Source: Flavobacteriaceae bacterium UBA5079 (GTDB taxonomy: Bacteria > Bacteroidota > Bacteroidia > Flavobacteriales > Flavobacteriaceae). Taken from it: a stretch of DNA of 10,323 nucleotides. Shown one piece after another: positions 1 to 10,323 of the stretch (position 1 is its first letter; every line of letters starts with the position of its first letter). Where the stretch lies: positions 23,059 to 33,381 of the forward strand of contig DIAL01000089.1 in the NCBI GenBank assembly GCA_002414705.1, read 5' to 3'. The notes under the pieces are model-generated. The model did not search any database, was not told where the DNA came from, and worked only from the letters and a program-made list of their open reading frames with translations. The position numbers and the translations under genes were made by a program.

Positions 1-64
1 TAAAACGATCGCTTAAATGAGAACCTAGAAAACCAGCCGCTCCTGTTATTAATACCTTTTTCAT
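1..64 (-). CDS. NAD-dependent sugar-nucleotide epimerase/decarboxylase, N-terminus only (runs off the left edge)
   Basis: Only the first 21 codons are visible. They read as a beta strand followed by GAAGFLG at residues 8-14, the GxxGxxG dinucleotide-binding loop of extended short-chain dehydrogenases that act on nucleotide sugars. The ATG overlaps the last base of the upstream UDP-glucose dehydrogenase stop codon (TAATG), so the two are almost certainly translated in succession. Following a UDP-glucuronate-producing enzyme, the likeliest roles are UDP-glucuronate decarboxylase (giving UDP-xylose) or UDP-glucuronate 4-epimerase (giving UDP-galacturonate). That choice is inference from context; the substrate-specific residues lie outside the window. 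Confidence 0.85.
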   Translation of the reverse strand, partial: MKKVLITGAAGFLGSHLSDRF

Positions 65-1374
65 TAATCTATTGTCTTTCTTCCTATTGAACTATAATAA
101 AAGCCTTCATTTTTAATATCCTGAACGTCGTATAAATTTCTACCATCAAAAATAACTGGTGCATTCATTTCAGATTTCAGTTTATTAAAATCTGGTGTTC
201 TAAAGATACTCCATTCTGTACAGATAATCAAGGCATCGGCATTTTGAATTGCCGAGTACATATCTGATGCAAACGTAACTTGATTTCCAAATTTTCGTTC
301 AACGTTCTCCATGGCTTCTGGATCGAATGCGGTTATGGAAGCGCCATTTTTAAGTAAATCTTCTATAATATATAAAGCTGGTGCTTCACGAATATCATCG
401 GTTTCTGGTTTGAAAGCCAAGCCCCAAATAGCTATTTTTTTGTCTTTTAAATCGCCTTTAAAAAACGCATCAATACGCGGTAAAAGTACTCGTTTTTGTA
501 TATCATTTACCTTAATAACTGCATTTAGAATATCAAAGTTATAATTATTGTCTTTTCCTGATTTATGGAGTGCTTTAACGTCTTTAGGGAAGCAAGAGCC
601 ACCATATCCAATTCCAGGAAATAGGAAGCGTTTACCAATTCTTGAATCGGTTCCCATACCAATTCGTACTTTATCAACATCAGCTCCAACTTTTTCACAG
701 AAGTTTGCTATTTCGTTCATAAAGGTAATTTTGGTTGCTAAAAATGAATTAGCTGCGTATTTGGTAAGTTCTGCCGATTTCTCATCCATGATAATTATCG
801 GATTTCCAGAGCGCACAAATGGCTTATAGAGTTTTTCCATAAGTTGAGTTGCTTTATCTGAACTGGAACCAATAACAATACGTTCTGGCTTTAAAAAATC
901 TTCAACCGCAAAACCTTCCCGTAAGAATTCTGGATTGGAAACCACATCAAATTCTACAGTCGTTTCATTAGCAATAGCTTCAGTAACACGATCGGCTGTT
1001 CCTACAGGAACGGTACTTTTATCGACAATTACTTTGTAGCTTTTTATTAATTTTCCAATATTTTTTGCAGCTCCTAACACATAGGATAAATCAGCCGAGC
1101 CATCTTCATCCTCTGGAGTTGGTAGTGCCAAGAAAATAATATCGCCATGGTTTAGGCCTTCTTCCAATGAGGTAGAAAACTTTAAACGATTTGCCTGTAT
1201 GTTTCTATCGAAAAGTGTATCTAGTAATGGTTCGTAGATTGGTACGATACCATCTTGCATTTTTTTAACTTTACTTTCGTCAATGTCTATACATAAGACA
1301 TTGTTACCTGTTTCGGCTAGACATGTTCCGGTAACTAAACCTACATAGCCTGTTCCTATTACTGATATGTTCAT
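64..1374 (-). CDS. ugd: UDP-glucose 6-dehydrogenase
   Basis: Cytoplasmic enzyme that oxidises UDP-glucose to UDP-glucuronate with two NAD+, supplying acidic or pentose precursors for the polysaccharide. The 436-residue length is normal for the family. An N-terminal Rossmann domain opens with GTGYVG (residues 7-12). The central domain carries the conserved ELTKYAANSF stretch with Lys205, and GGSCFPKD places the catalytic cysteine at Cys261. The C-terminal UDP-binding domain contains AFKPETDDIREAP (about 320-332). All key residues are present, so it should be active. It starts 30 bases after the upstream membrane-protein gene and overlaps the downstream epimerase start by one base. A GDP-mannose or UDP-ManNAc dehydrogenase is the alternative within the superfamily, but the motif set and the epimerase/decarboxylase neighbour favour UDP-glucose. 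Confidence 0.95.
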   Translation of the reverse strand: MNISVIGTGYVGLVTGTCLAETGNNVLCIDIDESKVKKMQDGIVPIYEPLLDTLFDRNIQANRLKFSTSLEEGLNHGDIIFLALPTPEDEDGSADLSYVLGAAKNIGKLIKSYKVIVDKSTVPVGTADRVTEAIANETTVEFDVVSNPEFLREGFAVEDFLKPERIVIGSSSDKATQLMEKLYKPFVRSGNPIIIMDEKSAELTKYAANSFLATKITFMNEIANFCEKVGADVDKVRIGMGTDSRIGKRFLFPGIGYGGSCFPKDVKALHKSGKDNNYNFDILNAVIKVNDIQKRVLLPRIDAFFKGDLKDKKIAIWGLAFKPETDDIREAPALYIIEDLLKNGASITAFDPEAMENVERKFGNQVTFASDMYSAIQNADALIICTEWSIFRTPDFNKLKSEMNAPVIFDGRNLYDVQDIKNEGFYYSSIGRKTID

Positions 1375-1404: not shown

Positions 1405-2547
1405 TCATATTCGACTATCTTCCTTAAAAGATTCTCTAATAATCAATAAGTAAATAGCAATGTTGGAATATGTAAAAAAATTTCCAGCAATAAAAATAAT
1501 GCTTATTACCACAAAAAGAAATAAAGTAGATATTTTATTTAATTTAAAGGTTAAAAAGACTTTTGAGAGGGTTATTAGGTAGACTACAGCTCCAATTATT
1601 CCAAAGAAAAACAGAAGATCAATAAATCCCATTTCAGATTTTAAAGAAAAATCATTTATACCTCCTATCACATAATTAGTCAAATGCCAATTATCTTTTA
1701 AAAAGGGTAAGGTATCATTCATTAAATTATAATTTCTGAAGGATAATAATGTGGTTAGAAAGCCATCATTCACTCTAATATCATTAAACACTCCGAATTG
1801 AAAGAAATTTAAATATCCGAAAATTATTAAAATAATTAGGAGTAACGATATACCGATTATTATTTTCTTGTTTTTGGTGAATGCAAATAAATAATAGACT
1901 AAAATAAAAAATACGGATACATAAACAGCTTTAGTGCCTATTAACAAACTACCCAATAAAATGAAAATGGCCATTGGTTTGACTATAAAATTTTCTTTGT
2001 ATTTATTTAAAAAATAAAATAGTGTTATTATGTAAATATATGATCCGGTTGACGAATTTACGAACAACCCGTTATAACCGAATCTATCACCAGTGTAAGA
2101 CTTTAAAAAATGAATACTAAACAGGAAGCCAATAAAAACTAAAACCGTATTTAATGTTATAATGTATTCAAATGTTTTAAATAAAATATCACGTGCTTTT
2201 TCATTAAGCGGTTTTTCCTTAAAATAGAACAATAATAAAAGTAGAAATAAGTACTTAAAAAAAAGACTAATAATATCAATCTGGAATGAGTTTGGAATAA
2301 ATAATTGACCAAATAAGAAGCAACCTAATATGGCACAAAACAATAATTTAAGCTTTATATCTTTACTAAAAACCAACGAAATAGTGAAAAGACATAAAGC
2401 AAGACCCTTAACTATTATTTGTGTCATTGAATTTTCATGGAAATAATATATAGATATTTTACCAATATTTTCTGATATAAAAAATAATAGTAATAATAAC
2501 GAGGCTAAATAATTAGTTATAAAAATTGTGGCCTTATTATTTATCAT
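1405..2547 (-). CDS. Polytopic membrane protein, polymerase/ligase-like (third Wzy/WaaL-type protein of the operon)
   Basis: A 380-residue, very hydrophobic protein with about ten predicted membrane helices, for example near residues 7-25, 45-61, 66-83, 92-109, 128-148, 170-184, 191-205, 209-224, 229-246, 310-328 and 341-357. The longest non-membrane stretch is about 247-305. Features resembling bacterial glycan polymerases are an RFGYNGLF segment (155-162), a GTK segment at a helix start (204-206), and SEMGFIDLLFFFGIIG (304-319), which recalls the acidic-D-x-L...GxxG helix of Wzy-like exopolysaccharide polymerases. It starts inside the acetyltransferase gene (11-base overlap) and is followed by ugd. 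Likely role: joining repeat units, or ligation, on the periplasmic face of the inner membrane. The family is inferred from topology, short motifs and context; no catalytic residue is certain. Confidence 0.7.
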   Translation of the reverse strand: MINNKATIFITNYLASLLLLLFFISENIGKISIYYFHENSMTQIIVKGLALCLFTISLVFSKDIKLKLLFCAILGCFLFGQLFIPNSFQIDIISLFFKYLFLLLLLFYFKEKPLNEKARDILFKTFEYIITLNTVLVFIGFLFSIHFLKSYTGDRFGYNGLFVNSSTGSYIYIITLFYFLNKYKENFIVKPMAIFILLGSLLIGTKAVYVSVFFILVYYLFAFTKNKKIIIGISLLLIILIIFGYLNFFQFGVFNDIRVNDGFLTTLLSFRNYNLMNDTLPFLKDNWHLTNYVIGGINDFSLKSEMGFIDLLFFFGIIGAVVYLITLSKVFLTFKLNKISTLFLFVVISIIFIAGNFFTYSNIAIYLLIIRESFKEDSRI

Positions 2548-3073
2548 TTCTATATTTTAATATTTTGGCAGGAACACCACCTACAATAGCAAAATCCGGG
2601 ATGTCTTTTGTAACTACGGCTCCTGCTGCTACGATTACATGGCTTCCTATGTTACAGCCTGCCGTAACAATAACATTTGCACCTAGCCAAACATCATTTC
2701 CAATACATGTTTCAAAATAATTTTTCCCCTGTGCTTGTATTGGTATATCTAAACTGTCATATCTATGATTTCTGGAATAGACTTTAACGTCTGGTCCCAT
2801 TATAACATTATTTCCAATATGCACATTAGCCTGAATTAAACAGTTAGTTCCTAATTCTGAATAATTACCCAAGGTTGCATTCGGTGATATTTCGGCTCCT
2901 TTTTTCACTCGCGGTTTATGTCCACATTTCTTCAGATATTTGCGAACCAAAAAGCTTCTCAATTTTGGGAAAAATAGAGCATAAGGTCTATAATCTTCAG
3001 GTGTTTGTTTAAAAAATAAAACATATACTAAATATACTATTTTTCTAAAGGAAGATATATTATTGGTTTTCAT
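2537..3073 (-). CDS. Hexapeptide-repeat O-acetyltransferase (left-handed beta-helix family)
   Basis: A 178-residue acyltransferase that probably moves acetyl from acetyl-CoA to a hydroxyl of the polysaccharide or of a lipid-linked sugar. Residues 1-55 form a basic, partly hydrophobic N-terminal extension. From about 58 the sequence becomes imperfect [LIV]-G-x-x hexapeptide turns (ATLGNY, VHIGNN, TCIGND, CNIGSH). RNHRYD (101-106) provides the likely catalytic His103 of the maltose/galactoside/colanic-acid acetyltransferase group, and the C-terminus has the typical GGVPAKILKYR end (165-175). It overlaps the upstream ligase gene by 14 bases and the downstream membrane protein by 11, indicating translational coupling. 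Family confidence is high; the acetylated sugar cannot be read from sequence. Confidence 0.9.
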   Translation of the reverse strand: MKTNNISSFRKIVYLVYVLFFKQTPEDYRPYALFFPKLRSFLVRKYLKKCGHKPRVKKGAEISPNATLGNYSELGTNCLIQANVHIGNNVIMGPDVKVYSRNHRYDSLDIPIQAQGKNYFETCIGNDVWLGANVIVTAGCNIGSHVIVAAGAVVTKDIPDFAIVGGVPAKILKYRNDK

Positions 3074-4289
3074 TACTTAAAGCTATTTTATTTATGGCAA
3101 AAAACATGGCAAAAAACGTTATTCCCATATTACGAACCAACACATTTTCAGTAGTTGAGATACAAATCACGAATACTATTAACAGTAATTGCTCATATTT
3201 TTTTGTTTTGATTGCTTGATAACTATTGAAAGTTAAGAAAAAGAAGAAGACTGTTAAACCCATTAATCCTAATTCTATCAAATAATTTAAATACTGATTA
3301 TGCGAATTGTATTTTTTTTCAAAAGAAAAGAACATTTCATTTTCAATATAAGCTTCTTTTAACACTGTCATTTCCATTCCTGTACCATAACCAAAAAATG
3401 GTTTTTCCAAAACTTTTTCAACTGCTACTTGCCATCTTGCCATTCGTGAATCAGAAACTAATTTTTTAGTTGTATTACTATTACCTACATTTTCTGTTAA
3501 ATCCCAAACAATACCTCGTTGCCATTTTTTAACGAAATATGTGTCTTTCAAAACATAAAGCATAGACACCATTAAAAACAAACCCGTTCCTAGTACAATT
3601 AAACGTTGTTTTTTGCTTTTTAATTTTAGAAACACATAAAATAAAGCGTATATAAGGGCTGCAATAAAAACAATACGGCTGTTCAGAAATAGTAAGCTCA
3701 CGAAAAACACTGAATAAATTACTATCTGAATTTCTTTTGCTAATTTGTAGTGGTTAAATTCCCACATAGCAGAACTTACCAAAATGTATAAACCTAAATA
3801 TGTAGGATGGGAATCATGCAAAGGCAGAACGAATTTTTGAGTTGTATACCTATAACTAAACAAGTATCTTAAAGTGAAATTTTCTGCATCTATGTAATTT
3901 ATGAGAACATTTATGAGTAAAAATAAACAAACAAAAAACAAGCTTATTGTTAACCCAAAAAATAATGATTTCTGGACTTTTCGAAAATCTAATTTCGATT
4001 TAAAACCTAGAACTAAAGGTATTATTAGAAAAGTAGCTATCCTCCCTAAAAAATTAAAACCAGTACTAAAATTGTCCGAATAAAAAACACCTAAAACATA
4101 TGCAAAAAATAGCATAGCTGTGGATGTTAAAAAGAATTTATAATTGTAGGTTACGTTTTTTTTGTCAATCTTAAAAACAACAATAAAAATAGATAATGCC
4201 AAAAAAACATTACTTGCTGGTAAATATATGGGCACAAAGAAAGAAAATAGAAAGAAAGGTATTAGTGAATATTTATCTATGTAATTCAT
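3060..4289 (-). CDS. O-antigen ligase / Wzy_C-domain membrane protein (WaaL- or Wzy-like)
   Basis: A 409-residue polytopic inner-membrane protein with about eleven helices. The large periplasmic loop (about 250-335) carries the Wzy_C (O-antigen ligase) signature: SRMARWQVAVEKVLEKPFFG (281-300), then YGTGM, then NSHNQYLNYLIELGLMGL (328-345) with His330 as the conserved loop histidine. A further conserved-type arginine sits in LNSRIVF (Arg205). Such proteins use undecaprenyl-diphosphate-linked glycan as donor, either polymerising it (Wzy) or transferring it to lipid A or another acceptor (WaaL). The ATG overlaps the upstream stop as ATGA (4 bases). Because a separate Wzy-type polymerase lies directly upstream, ligase is the more economical role here, but sequence alone does not separate the two. 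Confidence 0.88.
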   Translation of the reverse strand: MNYIDKYSLIPFFLFSFFVPIYLPASNVFLALSIFIVVFKIDKKNVTYNYKFFLTSTAMLFFAYVLGVFYSDNFSTGFNFLGRIATFLIIPLVLGFKSKLDFRKVQKSLFFGLTISLFFVCLFLLINVLINYIDAENFTLRYLFSYRYTTQKFVLPLHDSHPTYLGLYILVSSAMWEFNHYKLAKEIQIVIYSVFFVSLLFLNSRIVFIAALIYALFYVFLKLKSKKQRLIVLGTGLFLMVSMLYVLKDTYFVKKWQRGIVWDLTENVGNSNTTKKLVSDSRMARWQVAVEKVLEKPFFGYGTGMEMTVLKEAYIENEMFFSFEKKYNSHNQYLNYLIELGLMGLTVFFFFLTFNSYQAIKTKKYEQLLLIVFVICISTTENVLVRNMGITFFAMFFAINKIALSNENQ

Positions 4290-5503
4290 TTAAATCCTTT
4301 TAAACTAAAATTAATCCTGTAAGTCATAATCTTTATTAATGCAATAATTATTAACATAATGTAAAACGTTAAATCAAAATATCCTGTGTGAATGCACATA
4401 AGTGTGTTAATGGTAAACAATGCATATAAAGTTAAAGAAAATGGATCCTTTTTTTCTTTCATTATTTTCTTTATGTACTCAATGAGAAAGGCAATTAGCA
4501 AGAAACCAAAAAACACCAGAAAATATCCACCGTCTATAAATAAGGCACCTTGTAAAGTAGGCGTTATACTCCATGGTTTTCCATTTGGCATTTTTCTTGC
4601 TCCAACAATTTCGCCTACAATATTTCTAACCCCTAATTGACTTCCTGGTAATAATGTTTTAAAATTAGAAAAAGCTAATCCTAAATAATACGGCTTATTT
4701 TCTGTTTTTTCAATGATAGTTTTAACCATTTGCTGGTCAAATCTAAAAAGAGCGAGTGTTGGTATAAATTGTTTTAAAACAGGTTTATCCTCAAAATATG
4801 TTATGTCCATATTCTTGTAATAACGTGTTAGGCTATACTTTAAACTCACTCTAAAGGAAGAGATATAAGACATTAACATGACCACCACCAACAAGCCAAT
4901 TAGGTTTTTTTTGGTAAAAATATTCTTATACCTATTTTGAAAATCATTTCTAATTACAAAAAAAAGAATAACAGTACCTCCCACTAAAATTATTAAAGGA
5001 GATCTGTAACCTAAAGAAATTATAAATAAGGCTTGCGTTATGATGAAAATTATATATTTAATTTTAAATTTTTTGTTTGCTAAAAGTCTTTCAGCAAAGA
5101 AAATTAATGATATAATGATGCTTGTATAAACTATAACATTTGTAATAGCAAAAGTCCCAAACCTTTTAGTAGCCGACAATATTAGTATGCCTCCATTTAG
5201 ATAATGCGTTAAAATAATTAAGCAAAAACTGAATGTATTTATCAAAACAAATAAAACAAAAATTACTTTAGGTTTAAACCTCCCTTTTATATTACTTTTA
5301 AACTTTATTTTTATTGTGCGTGTGAATAAAGTGCCTATTAAGAAGCCTATAAAGCCCAAAAAGCATAATATGTATAATTTCGTGTTTTCTAATATTTCAG
5401 AAAAAAAAGGAAAGTTTATAATTCCTGTCAAATTAACAGCAAGAAAAATAACCAAAAATATTCTTAAATAAGGTAATGGTTTGATTTCAATATTTTCATT
5501 CAT
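4286..5503 (-). CDS. wzy: O-antigen/capsule repeat-unit polymerase, Wzy-like
   Basis: A 405-residue polytopic membrane protein, first gene of the minus-strand operon. It shows helices throughout, SLGYRSPLI (about 163-171) with a likely functional arginine, a long hydrophilic loop (about 217-315) with a LPGSQLG segment, and TPTLQGALFIDGGYFLVFFG (315-334), the T-x-x-G...D-G-G pattern of oligosaccharide repeat-unit polymerases. Its expected role is joining flipped repeat units at the periplasmic face. A GTG at 5509 would add two residues, but the ATG at 5503 is preferred: the best promoter would start transcription near 5516, leaving about 12 bases of leader before the ATG and almost none before the GTG. 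The stop overlaps the next start by 4 bases. Confidence 0.82.
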   Translation of the reverse strand: MNENIEIKPLPYLRIFLVIFLAVNLTGIINFPFFSEILENTKLYILCFLGFIGFLIGTLFTRTIKIKFKSNIKGRFKPKVIFVLFVLINTFSFCLIILTHYLNGGILILSATKRFGTFAITNVIVYTSIIISLIFFAERLLANKKFKIKYIIFIITQALFIISLGYRSPLIILVGGTVILFFVIRNDFQNRYKNIFTKKNLIGLLVVVMLMSYISSFRVSLKYSLTRYYKNMDITYFEDKPVLKQFIPTLALFRFDQQMVKTIIEKTENKPYYLGLAFSNFKTLLPGSQLGVRNIVGEIVGARKMPNGKPWSITPTLQGALFIDGGYFLVFFGFLLIAFLIEYIKKIMKEKKDPFSLTLYALFTINTLMCIHTGYFDLTFYIMLIIIALIKIMTYRINFSLKGFK

Positions 5504-5514
5504 AATCACTTTTG
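5480..5514 (+). promoter_or_regulatory. Weak candidate promoter for the divergent glycosyltransferase
   Basis: The plus strand has TTTG (5480-5483), a 23-base spacer and CACTTTTG (5507-5514), one mismatch from TAnnTTTG. Transcription would begin near 5520, giving a leader of about 40 bases before the ATG at 5561. It overlaps the start of wzy, so the two divergent transcription units would share or compete for the same short region. The spacing is at the upper limit and the -7 box is imperfect. Confidence 0.25.
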
Positions 5515-5521
5515 TATACTA

Positions 5522-5550
5522 CAAAAATATGCAACTTAAAAAACAAACAA
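5522..5550 (-). promoter_or_regulatory. Promoter of the minus-strand polysaccharide operon
   Basis: The minus strand has TTG (5550-5548), an 18-base spacer, then TATTTTTG (5529-5522), an exact fit to the Bacteroidota sigma-A pattern TTG-N17-23-TAnnTTTG. Transcription should begin near 5516, about 12 bases before the ATG at 5503. It is the best promoter in the window and would drive everything from wzy down to ugd and the epimerase. Confidence 0.6.
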
Positions 5551-5560
5551 GAAATAAACT

Positions 5561-6634
5561 ATGAAATTATTTTTAATCTCAAATATGTATCCATCTGCAG
5601 CAGATTCTTTATTTGGAGTTTTTGTTCAAAACTTTAAAAATGAATTAGAAAAACAAGGTGCTACATTTAGTAAATTAAGTTTAATAAAAGGAAAATCTAG
5701 TTCAATCTTTAAAAAACTATCAAGTTATATAAATCATTATTACAGTTGTATTAATAATTATGCATCCAATGATTATGATTTAATATATGTACATTATTTA
5801 ACGCATCACATTCCTATATTATCACTCTTTAATTTAAACAAAAAGAAGGTGGTAATAAACTCTCATGGAAGTGATATTATTGGTTTACAAAATTCCCCTT
5901 TTTTAAATTTTTTTGCTAAACGGATTTTAAAAAAAGTACATTTGATAGTTGTTCCTACAAGTTATTTTAAAGCAAAAATTATAGATTATTATCCTTTTTT
6001 AGATTCAAACAAAATCTATGTTTCACCATCAGCAGGAATAGAAGCTCATAAATTTTATTCAAAACAACAAAAAACATTTACCAGTAAAACCCTTTCATTA
6101 GGTTTCATTTCTCGTTTTATAGAAGAAAAAGGTTGGAAAACATACTTGCAGGCATTAGTTGAACTAAAAGAAGCGGAGATTCCTTTCAAGGCAGTAATGG
6201 CTGGGAAAGGTCCAGACGAAAGTCAGATTTTAGAATTTATTGAAGAAAATGAATTGAGCACAAATCTCAATTATTTAGGATTGGTTAAACAAGACGAATT
6301 AATTGATATTTATAATGATTTAGACCTCTATATTTTTCCAACTTATAGAGAAGCTGAAAGTTTAGGATTAACAGGTTTAGAAGCCATGTCCTGTGGTGCT
6401 GCAGTAGTATCATGCAATGTTTCTGGACCAACAACATATGTTGAAAATAATATAAATGGTTATTTATTCCCACCTAAAGACACCACAGAGCTCGTAAAAA
6501 TCATAAAGCACTATTATAAACTCAACTCTAATGAAAAAGAAAAAATGTCACTTGCGGCCTTAGAGACTGCTAAACAATATGAAAGTAAACGTGTCAATAA
6601 AAAACTGTATGAAAAACTTATTCAAACGTTGTAA
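5561..6634 (+). CDS. Family 4 glycosyltransferase (GT-B fold)
   Basis: A 357-residue retaining glycosyltransferase that transfers a sugar from a nucleotide-sugar donor onto the growing lipid-linked oligosaccharide at the cytoplasmic face. The N-terminal half opens with the FLISNMYPS strand-turn and the Gly18-Val20 loop typical of GT4 enzymes, with HGSD at 102-105 in the acceptor domain. The C-terminal donor domain has RFIEEKGW (Arg185 and Lys190, diphosphate contacts), AGKGPDE (214-220) and the E-x7-E motif REAESLGLTGLEAM with Glu266 and Glu274, followed by GxxVV and NGYLFPP. The length is full and the motifs intact. It is the only plus-strand gene in the window, divergent from the operon and ending 4 bases from the wzx relic. 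No Shine-Dalgarno sequence precedes the ATG, as is usual in this phylum. The sugar transferred cannot be inferred. Confidence 0.92.
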   Translation: MKLFLISNMYPSAADSLFGVFVQNFKNELEKQGATFSKLSLIKGKSSSIFKKLSSYINHYYSCINNYASNDYDLIYVHYLTHHIPILSLFNLNKKKVVINSHGSDIIGLQNSPFLNFFAKRILKKVHLIVVPTSYFKAKIIDYYPFLDSNKIYVSPSAGIEAHKFYSKQQKTFTSKTLSLGFISRFIEEKGWKTYLQALVELKEAEIPFKAVMAGKGPDESQILEFIEENELSTNLNYLGLVKQDELIDIYNDLDLYIFPTYREAESLGLTGLEAMSCGAAVVSCNVSGPTTYVENNINGYLFPPKDTTELVKIIKHYYKLNSNEKEKMSLAALETAKQYESKRVNKKLYEKLIQTL

Positions 6635-6640
6635 AATATC

Positions 6641-6669
6641 ATTTATATATATTCTTTCTTATATAAATA
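6641..6669. terminator. Possible weak AT-only hairpin between convergent gene ends
   Basis: ATTTATAT at 6641-6648 can pair with ATATAAAT at 6661-6668, plus one more A-T pair inside. It lies where the glycosyltransferase and the wzx relic meet. The stem holds no G or C and no clear T-tract follows in either direction, so it may not act as a terminator. Confidence 0.15.
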
Positions 6670-6899
6670 ACACTCACCAGATTCCAAAAATCTAAACTAA
6701 CTGACGTTGCAATAGCAACACCATTGACACCATAATTATTAACTAAAACCAAGTTTAGAGAAATGTTAATTAGTAAAGCTATAAAAAGTATGTTTTGAAA
6801 AGCTTTCTGGCTGCGTGTCATTTGTAGAATAGACCCAACAGGACCACAAACTGCATTGAACATTGGCCTACACATAAAATGATCAATGCTTTTTTCCTA

Positions 6900-6915
6900 G
6901 CTTAAAATTTTAAGC
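6900..6915. repeat. Perfect 16-base palindrome at the relic boundary
   Basis: GCTTAAAATTTTAAGC is self-complementary over all 16 bases. It sits where similarity to the intact wzx gene fades, 26 bases past the stop codon of the secreted-protein gene. On the plus strand it is followed by ATTTTTG, on the minus strand by an A-run, so it resembles a terminator only for plus-strand transcription, and a poor one. It could also be a recombination scar or coincidence; the intact wzx copy has the non-palindromic version CTTAAAATCTTC here. Confidence 0.4.
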
Positions 6916-6941
6916 ATTTTTGAATTACGTTTTCTGAACAA

Positions 6942-8933
6942 TTAATTCTTTATTAGTTTTAAATTGATTTTTGAATCATTCATTATCAATTGAATAATAT
7001 ATAATCCATTTGGAAGATTAGTGGCATTTATATATAATTGATCTTCTAATTCTTCAATAGAAACTAAGCCATTTAGATGCTTACCAAGCATATCATAAAT
7101 ATCAATTTTATAATTGCTATTAAAATTCATGCCTTTTACTTCAACAATATTTCTAGTAGGGTTTGGAGAAAGAAATATATTACTAGTATCTAATTCATAC
7201 TCTTCAGTCCCCAGAGTAATTTGATTATAATTATACATGGATTCGCCATATTCGTTATAAGACTTTATTCTAAAGCGATATTCTACATTTGACAGTAAAT
7301 TATTAGCAATTGTTAAACTATAACTTGTTAAATCTTTATCGGCCAAAATGTGAAATTCTTCTCCAGTGTTTTCATTTTCTAAAATAAATCCTTTGATACA
7401 GGGAGGGTTTGTTGCTTCCCAATTAAACAATATAGAATCAACAGTATTATCTAATACTTGACTATCAAAGTTTAACACCATATCTGGGTTTGTACATCTT
7501 TCAAAAAATGCTGTAATCTCAAGATTCTCTTCAGGTATCGTATAAAAATCCTCATTTAAAACTTCGGACCAATGACTTAATCTATATATGGCATTTTCTC
7601 CGTCAATAATCTGAAAATCAGGAGAGCCTATTTCCAATATTAAATTCTCTACAAAAACCTTTGTTGTTGGTGTTTCATAGCTTGGACCATCTATATTTAC
7701 TTGAAGACTTTCAGGTGAGGTTAAAAACGTAACTTCTGTTGTTTTAGGGAAAATCTCAACAGATTCTTCAGTTATTTGACCAAAATTATCTCTTACCTTT
7801 ACGATAAACCTAAACCAAACATTTGAAGACGTCTCGCCTGCATCTGGAATTGTATAGTATCCACTTCTCACGCCTGATGCCACTGAAGGTCCATCATGTA
7901 TGTGATCATTATGAAGAAATTCAACAAACCACTCGAAATTTTCTGACGAAATCTCACCATCAACTATATCTGTTGCGGAGGCTTCAAAGTATATTGTTTC
8001 ACCTGCTTGATATAGACTAGTACTTAAAGGATAGCTCAAGGTTACATCAGCAGGTGCATCATAAGGGACAACTGTTAAATAAAAGAAATCACTCCATGCT
8101 TCGCCAAAGTTATTAAATACCCTTACTTGATATTCACCTTCATAACCCGAATGTGTTCCGCCAAAACTATAAACATTAGAATTGGGTCCATTATTAAGTC
8201 TATTTCCATCTCTAAACCATTCATAATTTAAAGTTTCAGCCCCTGCTGCTCTTAACTCAAATCTAGTACGCTCCCCATCCATAGTAACTGTATCTTCCGG
8301 AGATTGAAGCACTATGGGCTCATTACCTTCATAATAATCAATTTTATAAAAAACATTATATATACGACTAAAGTAATAGAAGTAACCATCTGGACTCAAT
8401 TTTAGGTATACGCCTCCTCTTGGGATATCTGTGCCAAATGTTTCCCTAGTATCAGATAAATCATGTATATGATCATGCCCATCGAATTCCGGCGTAATTG
8501 TATTAATCCATTGTTTATTAAAATCTATAAAAAAGTATTTATTTACATATTCTTGTGGATACATAGGAGTAATTGTTTCATAAAATGCGCCACCAGTTAG
8601 TGCGTCACCTGCCATTCCCTGTTCTCCAAAATGTGGATAAGCATAAGTTGGTTCATCGTATACTGAAGTAGAAGTAGTATTTAGACCCTCTTCGATAGGC
8701 CACCCAAAATTTCGATTACTTTGACTAGCATCATTAATTTCTTCCCATTCATCTTTTCCAACATCATTAATAAATATCGTACTAGATTCTCTATGAATAT
8801 TCATTGTATAAGGATTTCTAAGGCCAATCCCCCAAAATAACTCTTGTACACCACCTTCTCCGTAATACGGATTGTCGGTTGGAACACTACCATCTTTATG
8901 AATACGCAAAACTTTACCATGAGTAGTATTCAT
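6942..8933 (-). CDS. Body fragment of the broken sugar dehydrogenase gene (catalytic C-terminal half to T9SS domain)
   Basis: This is the longest ATG-initiated frame of the broken gene, 663 codons, and is what an automatic caller would report. Its ATG at 8933 is an internal methionine in MNTTHGKVLRI and not a natural start: the same frame stays open and family-like upstream to 9254, just after an in-frame TGA (9257-9255). Translated alone it would lack the signal peptide and the first propeller blades including HTGGAI, so it should be neither exported nor folded properly. The C-terminal end shows the sorting-domain pattern LSPNPTRN ... YDMLGKHL ... LPNGLYIIQL, ending in a lysine-rich tail, as type IX cargo does. 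Confidence 0.6.
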   Translation of the reverse strand: MNTTHGKVLRIHKDGSVPTDNPYYGEGGVQELFWGIGLRNPYTMNIHRESSTIFINDVGKDEWEEINDASQSNRNFGWPIEEGLNTTSTSVYDEPTYAYPHFGEQGMAGDALTGGAFYETITPMYPQEYVNKYFFIDFNKQWINTITPEFDGHDHIHDLSDTRETFGTDIPRGGVYLKLSPDGYFYYFSRIYNVFYKIDYYEGNEPIVLQSPEDTVTMDGERTRFELRAAGAETLNYEWFRDGNRLNNGPNSNVYSFGGTHSGYEGEYQVRVFNNFGEAWSDFFYLTVVPYDAPADVTLSYPLSTSLYQAGETIYFEASATDIVDGEISSENFEWFVEFLHNDHIHDGPSVASGVRSGYYTIPDAGETSSNVWFRFIVKVRDNFGQITEESVEIFPKTTEVTFLTSPESLQVNIDGPSYETPTTKVFVENLILEIGSPDFQIIDGENAIYRLSHWSEVLNEDFYTIPEENLEITAFFERCTNPDMVLNFDSQVLDNTVDSILFNWEATNPPCIKGFILENENTGEEFHILADKDLTSYSLTIANNLLSNVEYRFRIKSYNEYGESMYNYNQITLGTEEYELDTSNIFLSPNPTRNIVEVKGMNFNSNYKIDIYDMLGKHLNGLVSIEELEDQLYINATNLPNGLYIIQLIMNDSKINLKLIKN

Positions 8934-9232
8934 GTCTTGCGCATTAGTTGGAGTACTATTATCACCTGTTGTTGTGAATAAATAGCCATTATTATCAATT
9001 ACAATAGCACCACCTGTATGCCAAATAGCAGTTAATGGACTTAAATCTATTAGAATTTGTTCTGAATCTAAATCTATTGTTGAATTTAAAAATTCAAATC
9101 TAGAAACCCTATTGTGAGTTGAGTCCTCTGTGGTATAAGTAACGTAAATATATGGTGAAGTTGGATAATCTGGATCAACTTGTATCCCAACTAATCCTCT
9201 GTCTCCTGATGTTACAGTAATTGTTGGAATTC

Positions 9233-9257
9233 TTACAATTGGTCTTCTATTAAATCA
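9233..9257 (-). other. Frameshift site in the secreted sugar dehydrogenase gene
   Basis: The upstream frame reads GAC CAA TTG TAA and stops at 9233. The downstream frame opens after TGA at 9257-9255 and reads CCA ATT GTA AGA, giving IVRIPTITVTSGDRG. Adding one A to make GAC CAA ATT GTA joins them as DQIVRIP with no other change. No slippery heptamer or long homopolymer is present, so a programmed shift or phase-variable tract is unlikely. Confidence 0.85.
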
Positions 9258-9448
9258 TTATTTTGAATTAAATAAACATAACCACTTTGATTAGCGAGCA
9301 AAGCCGTGTCTTCATCTATAAATGTAAAGCAACTAATATTTTCTAATTCATCTGTCACTTCAACAAGTGAGAATCCCACAGGTAAATTTTGAGCTGTAGT
9401 GACATTAAAAAAAAGTATAACTAAAAAACTGCTAATAATGAATCTCAT
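9233..9448 (-). CDS. N-terminal fragment of the broken sugar dehydrogenase gene (signal peptide and first strands)
   Basis: This 71-codon frame holds the true start of the gene. It begins with Met-Arg, a hydrophobic core and a signal peptidase I-type site after TTAQ (residue 20), then LPVGFSLVEV and LLANQSGYVYLIQNNDLIED, which match the opening of PQQ sugar dehydrogenases. It ends at a premature TAA (9235-9233) reached only because of the shift. A small secreted peptide could be made but has no recognisable function of its own. Confidence 0.6.
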   Translation of the reverse strand: MRFIISSFLVILFFNVTTAQNLPVGFSLVEVTDELENISCFTFIDEDTALLANQSGYVYLIQNNDLIEDQL

Positions 9449-9485
9449 GTTTTAATAAATTTTCCGTTAATATATTGAAATCTTA

Positions 9486-9515
9486 CAAATATAATTTAAC
9501 TTTTATTATTAACCA
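9486..9515 (-). promoter_or_regulatory. Candidate promoter of the secreted sugar dehydrogenase gene
   Basis: The minus strand reads TATATTTG at 9493-9486, an exact TAnnTTTG, with TGG (one mismatch to TTG) at 9515-9513 after a 19-base spacer. Transcription would begin near 9480, about 30 bases before the ATG at 9448. It lies in the 78-base gap after wzx, so the gene could be expressed independently of the flippase. Confidence 0.4.
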
Positions 9516-9526
9516 TTTTTTTTGAG

Positions 9527-10323
9527 TTAAAACACGGTTTTACGAATATAAATATAACTTGTAATGTTCCAAAAGGCTAAACTTATTGCTGTTGCAGTAG
9601 CAACTCCATTTATTCCATGTTTCTCAACTAATAATATATTTAAAGTTATATTAATTATTAAGGCAATAAATAGAATGTTTTGAAATACTTTTTGTCTTCC
9701 AGTCATTTGTAGAATAGAACCAACAGGTCCGCATACTGCATTGAACAGTTGGCCAACGCATAAAATGATTAATGCTGTCGAGCCTAACTTAAAATCTTCA
9801 CCAAAAAACCTTAAAATAATGTCTTTAAATAATATAATTACAATAACGACCAACAATGAAATTATTAAATTAACTATTGTAGAGAATTTAACCAACTTTT
9901 TAAATAAAGCCATATCATTATCATGGAAAGCAGATGATAGTTTAGGCGCTAAAATAGAATCAATAGCTTGAAAAGTAAAGCTGGTCACTGCAGCAATCTT
10001 TAAAACGACACTATAAACTCCTACAACACTACTCTCTCTATAAATACCTAAAATAATAGTATCAGACCATCCCAAAAACACAATCATGGATGCAGAAAAA
10101 AGCATAGGTAAAGACTTTAAAACAAAGCCTTTCGATTTATAATTTGTGTGTTTTGAGAGTGGAAATAAATATTTATAAATATAAATAATCGAAATCAAAA
10201 ATAACACAAATATACCTAGCGTATGAGCTATAATACTGGTTACTGGCGTTGATTCATAAATTAAAATAAATACACCTAAAAAAAGCAATGAAAAAACAAA
10301 ACGACCACCATTAAACAAAAAAG
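9527..10323 (-). CDS. wzx: Wzx-type polysaccharide flippase, C-terminal part (runs off the right edge)
   Basis: At least 263 residues of a polytopic inner-membrane protein with about eight helices visible (near 7-20, 28-49, 68-83, 98-115, 147-165, 181-203, 212-231 and 237-256, counted from a TTG at 10318). The GWSDTIILGIYRESSVVGVYSVVLKIA stretch, seen here at about 83-109, and the C-terminal GPVGSILQMTGRQK ... NILLVEKHGINGVATAT pattern are typical of the MOP-superfamily oligosaccharide flippases that move undecaprenyl-linked repeat units to the periplasmic face. The TTG is unlikely to be the start: the frame stays open to the window edge, and full flippases are usually 420-500 residues, so roughly the first 40 per cent lies outside. 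The visible part has no frame damage. Confidence 0.88.
   Translation of the reverse strand, partial: FLFNGGRFVFSLLFLGVFILIYESTPVTSIIAHTLGIFVLFLISIIYIYKYLFPLSKHTNYKSKGFVLKSLPMLFSASMIVFLGWSDTIILGIYRESSVVGVYSVVLKIAAVTSFTFQAIDSILAPKLSSAFHDNDMALFKKLVKFSTIVNLIISLLVVIVIILFKDIILRFFGEDFKLGSTALIILCVGQLFNAVCGPVGSILQMTGRQKVFQNILFIALIINITLNILLVEKHGINGVATATAISLAFWNITSYIYIRKTVF

Follow-up and report, generated by a model that had tools for sequence, protein, structure and literature searches.

A stranded wzx tail beside the gene of a putatively secreted dehydrogenase in a Flavobacteriaceae polysaccharide locus: a probable scar of imprecise exchange

How does a gene for a putatively secreted sugar dehydrogenase come to lie between two 3' ends of the flippase gene wzx? 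The question is raised by a polysaccharide locus of Flavobacteriaceae bacterium UBA5079 (assembly GCA_002414705.1, contig DIAL01000089.1, positions 23,059 to 33,381 of the forward strand), analysed here as a window of 10,323 nucleotides. Read leftwards, it carries wzx (-), the dehydrogenase gene (-), a relic of a second wzx (-) and a glycosyltransferase gene (+). The best reading of the relic is the scar of an imprecise locus exchange: it is likely what remains of the 3' end of a once functional wzx from another lineage, after recombination had replaced part of the polysaccharide locus.

A first-pass annotation had reported the end of wzx as doubled in the same orientation, and nucleotide alignment of relic and intact tail bears this out. 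About 255 bases of the wzx 3' tail are present at both 6661-6916 and 9546-9803, including an ungapped direct repeat of 202 nt at 76% identity (6661-6862 and 9546-9747), which extends for another 28 nt at 89%, shifted by one base in register. The local alignment of the two copies scores 132, while 500 resamplings of the relic by a first-order Markov model give 13.8 ± 2.0 and at most 21: the repeat is real and far beyond chance. Used as a query against its own genome, the segment 6639-6915 matches itself and a single other place, the wzx tail, at 77%. The two tail proteins share 51 of 72 residues, the same count that had been made by eye.

The relic is not a complete transporter. Its open frame (6639-6875) has 78 aa, or 85 aa in a scan with a tail profile; about four fifths of its wzx are gone and occur nowhere else in its own genome at such similarity. 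Its stop codon lies 4 nt from that of the convergent glycosyltransferase gene. The dehydrogenase gene does stand between the tails, as had been claimed, but not directly beside the relic, which becomes recognisable at 6916: past the dehydrogenase stop codon come 25 nt, after which the sequence enters wzx mid-gene. This junction (6917-6941) has no clear match to the sequence upstream or downstream of the intact copy.

Later decay shows in two 1-nt gaps (near 6895 and 6862 in the local alignment with the intact tail), in the loss of the 5' part and in two changes at otherwise invariant columns. The last count was made on 24 rows, four more distant ones being left out; among the other 23, two rows have one such change and 21 have none. 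An 850-bp contig (P0241), which may derive from related data, contains 74 aa of the relic frame without a single difference.

The intact wzx continues beyond the window, its 5' part lying across an N gap (L003/L024) that hides two residues. An identical protein of 426 aa with MatE and Polysacc_synt domains (P0002) shows it whole, and on this sequence evidence the gene is whole in the species. The wzx of P0001 is identical as well; the two proteins are encoded on contigs of 18,747 bp (P0001) and 116,210 bp (P0002). We class it as a flippase of the MOP superfamily on its PF01554 match above cut-off, its full-length membrane protein and its place in a polysaccharide locus.

Divergence and ancestry of the two tails

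Over 72 codons, relic and intact tail differ at 16 first, 7 second and 34 third codon positions (chi-square p 5e-5), with a nonsynonymous divergence (dN) of 0.18 and a synonymous one (dS) of 1.25. Compared with four other loci over 68 codons, the relic has a dN of 0.20-0.27 and the intact copy one of 0.18-0.27, with 0.19-0.30 among those loci themselves. Given this codon-position bias and a relic dN like that of the intact copy, nearly all of the divergence arose while the relic's gene worked. These patterns show that the relic derives from a once-working, different wzx under purifying selection and that its decay is recent.

A fresh duplication is ruled out by the high dS combined with low dN; the first-pass annotation had already discounted it from the residue count, and the tree test below agrees. 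The relic as the end of an unrelated transporter, which the same annotation had named as the case against itself, is likewise excluded: the relic belongs to the same wzx subfamily, at 71%.

In a tail tree of 28 rows and 73 columns (P0029, in which the tail motif was not found, was left out), the intact tail groups with P0003 with a support of 90/88. The approximately unbiased (AU) test rejects relic and intact tail as sisters (p-AU 0.0115) on this short alignment with a long relic branch, and in-lineage sisterhood with it; a grouping of the relic with P0004 is not rejected (p-AU 0.357). The two tails are kin of one subclade, though a duplication in this species is probably not their source.

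No full-length wzx nearer to the relic than P0004 of Gaetbulibacter sp. PBL-D1 (78%, 56 of 72 residues) is present in the best 120 of 322 protein matches. Across 397 family genomes, the best full-length match to a relic-type wzx reaches 68% (G375), and a query with the intact wzx found nothing nearer than G375 in an overlapping sample of 336 genomes that are at least 99% complete.

Origin of the relic

For the proposed exchange we infer a one-sided route of recombination. Incoming DNA would pair with a conserved flank of the locus, and its other end would be joined without matching homology inside the 3' part of one wzx. The product would be a segment with wzx and the dehydrogenase gene abutting the last ~92 codons of the other wzx and the glycosyltransferase and polymerase genes beyond; the newcomer could be either wzx with the dehydrogenase gene or the relic with its sugar genes. 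The remaining stump does not encode a flippase any more, and its two one-base gaps came later. Loss of recipient sequence at the join, expected of homology-facilitated illegitimate recombination, is found here in the missing four fifths of the relic's wzx.

Related loci have an undisturbed order downstream of wzx. A scan of genome contigs gave 15 loci, and gene order was covered in 11 (L090, L094, L095 and L098 were left out). Eight loci have wzx at an identity of at least 56%; in the seven of them that were read (L090 excepted), wzx is followed within 8 bp by the gene of a hydrophobic protein of 408-436 aa, which we infer to be the polymerase, and then by a glycosyltransferase gene, and a hexapeptide gene at 64-70% lies close to wzx. 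On the far side of the relic, the best counterpart of the window's glycosyltransferase gene (54%) is found in G081; it is inverted there too, next to the gene of a related polymerase (45%), and both belong to a wzx locus. Because these counterparts stand in a wzx locus, the block beyond the relic is of the kind found in wzx loci, with the relic at its edge. In G300, of the same genus as G081, the glycosyltransferase counterpart lies at the same place and is not inverted.

A second scar was found with a profile of 16 wzx tails, which detects 91 places in 84 of the 397 genomes. At 89 of them the open frame has at least 316 aa, the lowest value coming from the N-gapped wzx of the window itself; two tails lack a flippase body, the window relic (85 aa) and one in G301 (134 aa). 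The latter lies at 13501-15079 of locus L115 (G301:C1:783000-802900). There, the gene of a complete 405-aa PF01943 flippase and the beginning of an asnB-like gene overlap; BLASTP at 1e-4 does not match this flippase with the wzx of the window. The first ~18 codons of the asnB-like gene continue in frame into the final ~112 codons of a wzx that belongs to the window's subfamily, and 2 nt past the stop codon of this tail comes the start of a complete asnB-like gene. The two asnB-like starts align over 38 nt, and the plain order of wzx and asnB-like gene occurs in G081, G300, G027 and G069. Kinship of the 130-aa fused frame to wzx tails is seen by BLASTP (43% over 93 aa) and with the tail profile (E 3e-38); a Pfam scan gives no MatE match and one sub-threshold unrelated match.

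From this layout, the cuts in donor and recipient apparently did not fall at equivalent points: one lies just within the asnB-like gene, the other within wzx. As in the window, a body-less tail of the same wzx subfamily lies directly downstream of a complete wzx and is cut at nearly the same codons; unlike in the window, the new wzx belongs to an unrelated subfamily, there is no intervening cargo gene, and the tail continues the frame of the asnB-like start. Since G301 joins an unrelated wzx and ~18 codons of the next gene to an old wzx tail, it supports untidy module replacement. In both scars the cut in wzx falls close to the same FGE(D/E)F site, within about ten codons; given just two cases, this shared position is no more than a lead. 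It is a doubtful extension that untidy exchange in the polysaccharide loci of Flavobacteriaceae lands preferentially at the wzx 3' end, and that a tail kept before a same-strand gene may preserve translational coupling; in G301, where 2 nt separate the stop codon of the tail from the start codon of the asnB-like gene, such coupling would be feasible.

An exchange at wzx, or a fusion of two loci that left the tail of an older flippase, had been suggested by the first-pass annotation, and either fits the codon-level divergence, the tree test, the gene order of the relatives and the G301 scar. Its further suggestion, that the repeats could form a boundary at which modules are gained and lost, is not supported. 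Direct repeats at ~76% identity are poor substrates for ordinary homologous recombination, and we found no genome in which the dehydrogenase gene is cleanly lost and a single tail of this type remains. The repeats have the look of scars, not of a functioning module boundary.

Several results weigh against an exchange with another lineage. The silent-site difference between relic and intact tail is 0.58, against 0.68-0.81 between either and the four other loci; with fewer mutual silent differences, the two are rather closely related and may go back to an old duplication. The relic stands on the unresolved backbone of the tail tree with a branch of 0.31 (median 0.11), and the AU test does not reject relic, intact tail and P0003 as one group (p-AU 0.462). 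Neither a donor nor a strain from before the exchange was found, and the homologous anchor of the proposed recombination is not seen, conserved flanks being present.

Both the silent-site distances and the P0003 grouping, together with the shared subfamily of the tails, favour an alternative in which two full wzx genes once flanked the dehydrogenase gene, by old duplication or by fusion of whole operons, and the second was later deleted from its 5' side. Against it stand the rejected sisterhood and two negative searches: no second wzx tail of this type occurs in 20 related loci searched (17 distinct places), and the scan of 397 genomes lists no tail pair besides the window's on one contig within a few kilobases. 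We regard this history as unlikely.

Direct repeats of a wzx tail on both sides of a cargo gene could also result from a single cross-over (Campbell-type) insertion of a circle that brought both the dehydrogenase gene and a wzx tail; for the displacement of Rhs tips, circular intermediates have been proposed (PMC2935791). However, the copies differ at about a quarter of their bases, no circle was found, and the dehydrogenase has only three distant matches among 72,556 plasmid records, so that such an insertion seems highly improbable. Least probable of all is an assembly artefact joining reads of two strains in one scaffold: the source is a draft assembly (3.4 Mb, 173 contigs, 88% completeness) that contains N runs, among them one in wzx, and a frameshift in the dehydrogenase gene, but there is no N between 6639 and 10323 and the relic frame recurs in P0241.

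If the relic is the scar of an imprecise exchange, its value lies in what it records. Polysaccharide loci change by gene swaps whose joins are mostly invisible, the end product alone surviving; a wzx stump whose divergence goes back to its time as a functional gene, and whose decay is recent, marks the join and roughly dates it. Body-less wzx tails can be found by a simple scan, as the G301 case shows (two of the 91 places), so that the frequency and position of untidy exchange can be counted across genomes. The relic itself is a real but fairly ordinary trace of the reshuffling of surface-polysaccharide clusters.

The cargo gene and the layout of the locus

The dehydrogenase gene encodes a GSDH domain (PF07995), Ig and fn3 domains and a sorting tail of the type IX secretion system (T9SS). 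GSDH and sorting domains score above cut-off in one frame; the start of the gene is in another, and its signal peptide was judged by eye. The assembly has one frame break near 9240, with a 71-aa open reading frame followed by a long open frame of 770 aa from stop to stop; this may be a true mutation or an assembly error. It splits a 2.5-kb gene that is open elsewhere; the pieces are noted at 9233-9448 and 6942-8933.

The eight closest relatives of the protein (834-848 aa) are 46-52% identical, and proteins in this range include those of Lacinutrix (L. iliipiscaria, P0123), Oceanihabitans (P0125) and Robiginitalea. The window's own protein is not among the protein-database matches, from which nothing is inferred, as the gene is present on the contig anyway. 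Scoring the best three candidates per genome, we found matches at E<=1e-30 in two of the 397 family genomes: the source genome and one other, at 33%. Five genus mates have no match over more than about 165 of 663 residues, and the 20 loci searched have none except the locus fetched with the dehydrogenase itself. The gene is best seen as rare cargo. A plasmid origin was considered and rejected, the three matches among plasmid records (E<=1e-20) being 24-27% identical. Another polysaccharide locus, L112 (G027), contains a CotH-domain protein with a T9SS sorting tail at 14803-17049; T9SS secreted proteins may be recurrent passengers of polysaccharide loci.

Left of the glycosyltransferase gene, all on the minus strand, follow an O-antigen polymerase-type gene, a Wzy_C-type gene, a hexapeptide acyltransferase gene, a membrane protein gene and a UDP-glucose dehydrogenase family gene (Table 1). 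The last is 96-97% identical to genes of the genus mates G004 and, over 270 aa, G001. The region 1405-5509 thus holds three polymerase/ligase-type membrane proteins, one of them, the product of the gene listed after the hexapeptide acyltransferase gene, by a sub-threshold Wzy_C match only. Because G081 has counterparts of all three, they alone are no sign of a locus fusion. The order of glycosyltransferase and polymerase genes is swapped between the window and G081; counterparts of the glycosyltransferase gene lie at 8100-9170 of L111 and 8020-9081 of L114.

Table 1. Positions of the main features in the 10,323-nt window
Feature	Position	Strand	Basis
wzx flippase gene, 3' two thirds	9527..10323	-	MatE PF01554 above cut-off; rest beyond window
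Intact copy of the repeated wzx tail	9546..9803	-	Direct repeat search and local alignment
T9SS-type secreted pyrroloquinoline quinone (PQQ)-dependent sugar dehydrogenase-like gene (GSDH, Ig, fn3, sorting tail)	6942..9448	-	Domain matches
25-nt junction, from dehydrogenase stop codon to first recognisable relic base	6917..6941	.	Alignment
Relic, last ~92 codons of a different wzx, two one-base gaps	6639..6916	-	Alignment, tail profile
GT4-type glycosyltransferase gene, convergent with relic	5561..6634	+	Best match 54%, in G081
O-antigen polymerase-type gene (PF01901)	4286..5509	-	45% to counterpart in wzx loci of G081 and G300
UDP-glucose/GDP-mannose dehydrogenase family gene, conserved left flank of variable region	64..1374	-	Genus-mate identity

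GC content is not decisive, with 0.28-0.37 in windows within the dehydrogenase gene and 0.22-0.35 in the sugar genes (1501-6500). N runs occur within 8059-9123 of L023, in an epimerase gene, and within 2-601 of L024, in wzx. Gap sizes in the scaffold are unreliable, since the same few residues flank the epimerase-gene run on both sides and the run in wzx replaces two residues. The motif TANNTTTG, which we take to be a Bacteroidetes promoter motif, was rejected as a signal: it has 18 matches where 19.4 are expected, and its two-box form has 2 against 1.3. As these counts are at chance level, its match at 9486-9493, upstream of the dehydrogenase gene, was given no weight.

Comparison with known systems

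No published account of wzx-tail relics in Flavobacteriaceae was found in the literature searched. Related traces are described elsewhere. In Salmonella, galactose-initiated O-antigen clusters carry wzy remnants, attributed to serial deletion after another wzy took over (PMC3715488). There too, degraded genes of the same pathway are fossils of the evolution of an O-antigen locus, with wzx and wzy alleles exchanged at fixed places; those remnants are described as products of serial deletion, whereas the wzx tail of the window marks a join beside a complete wzx.

Displacement of Rhs C-terminal tips, with its proposed circular intermediate, similarly leaves detached 3' ends of older versions downstream of a complete gene (PMC2935791). 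Rhs genes have conserved cores and variable tips; in contrast, it is the conserved tail of a homologous gene that is stranded here, with cargo in between.

For the displacement of effector-immunity modules of the type VI secretion system (T6SS) in Vibrio cholerae, homology-facilitated illegitimate recombination has been proposed (PMC5361080). A new module displaces the old one and leaves part of it downstream, including the shifted 3' end of the effector gene, and one end of the join lacks homology, as in the exchange that we favour for the window. The T6SS events are stacked and keep a useful immunity gene (PMC5361080), whereas the locus of UBA5079 shows one event and a non-coding flippase stump.

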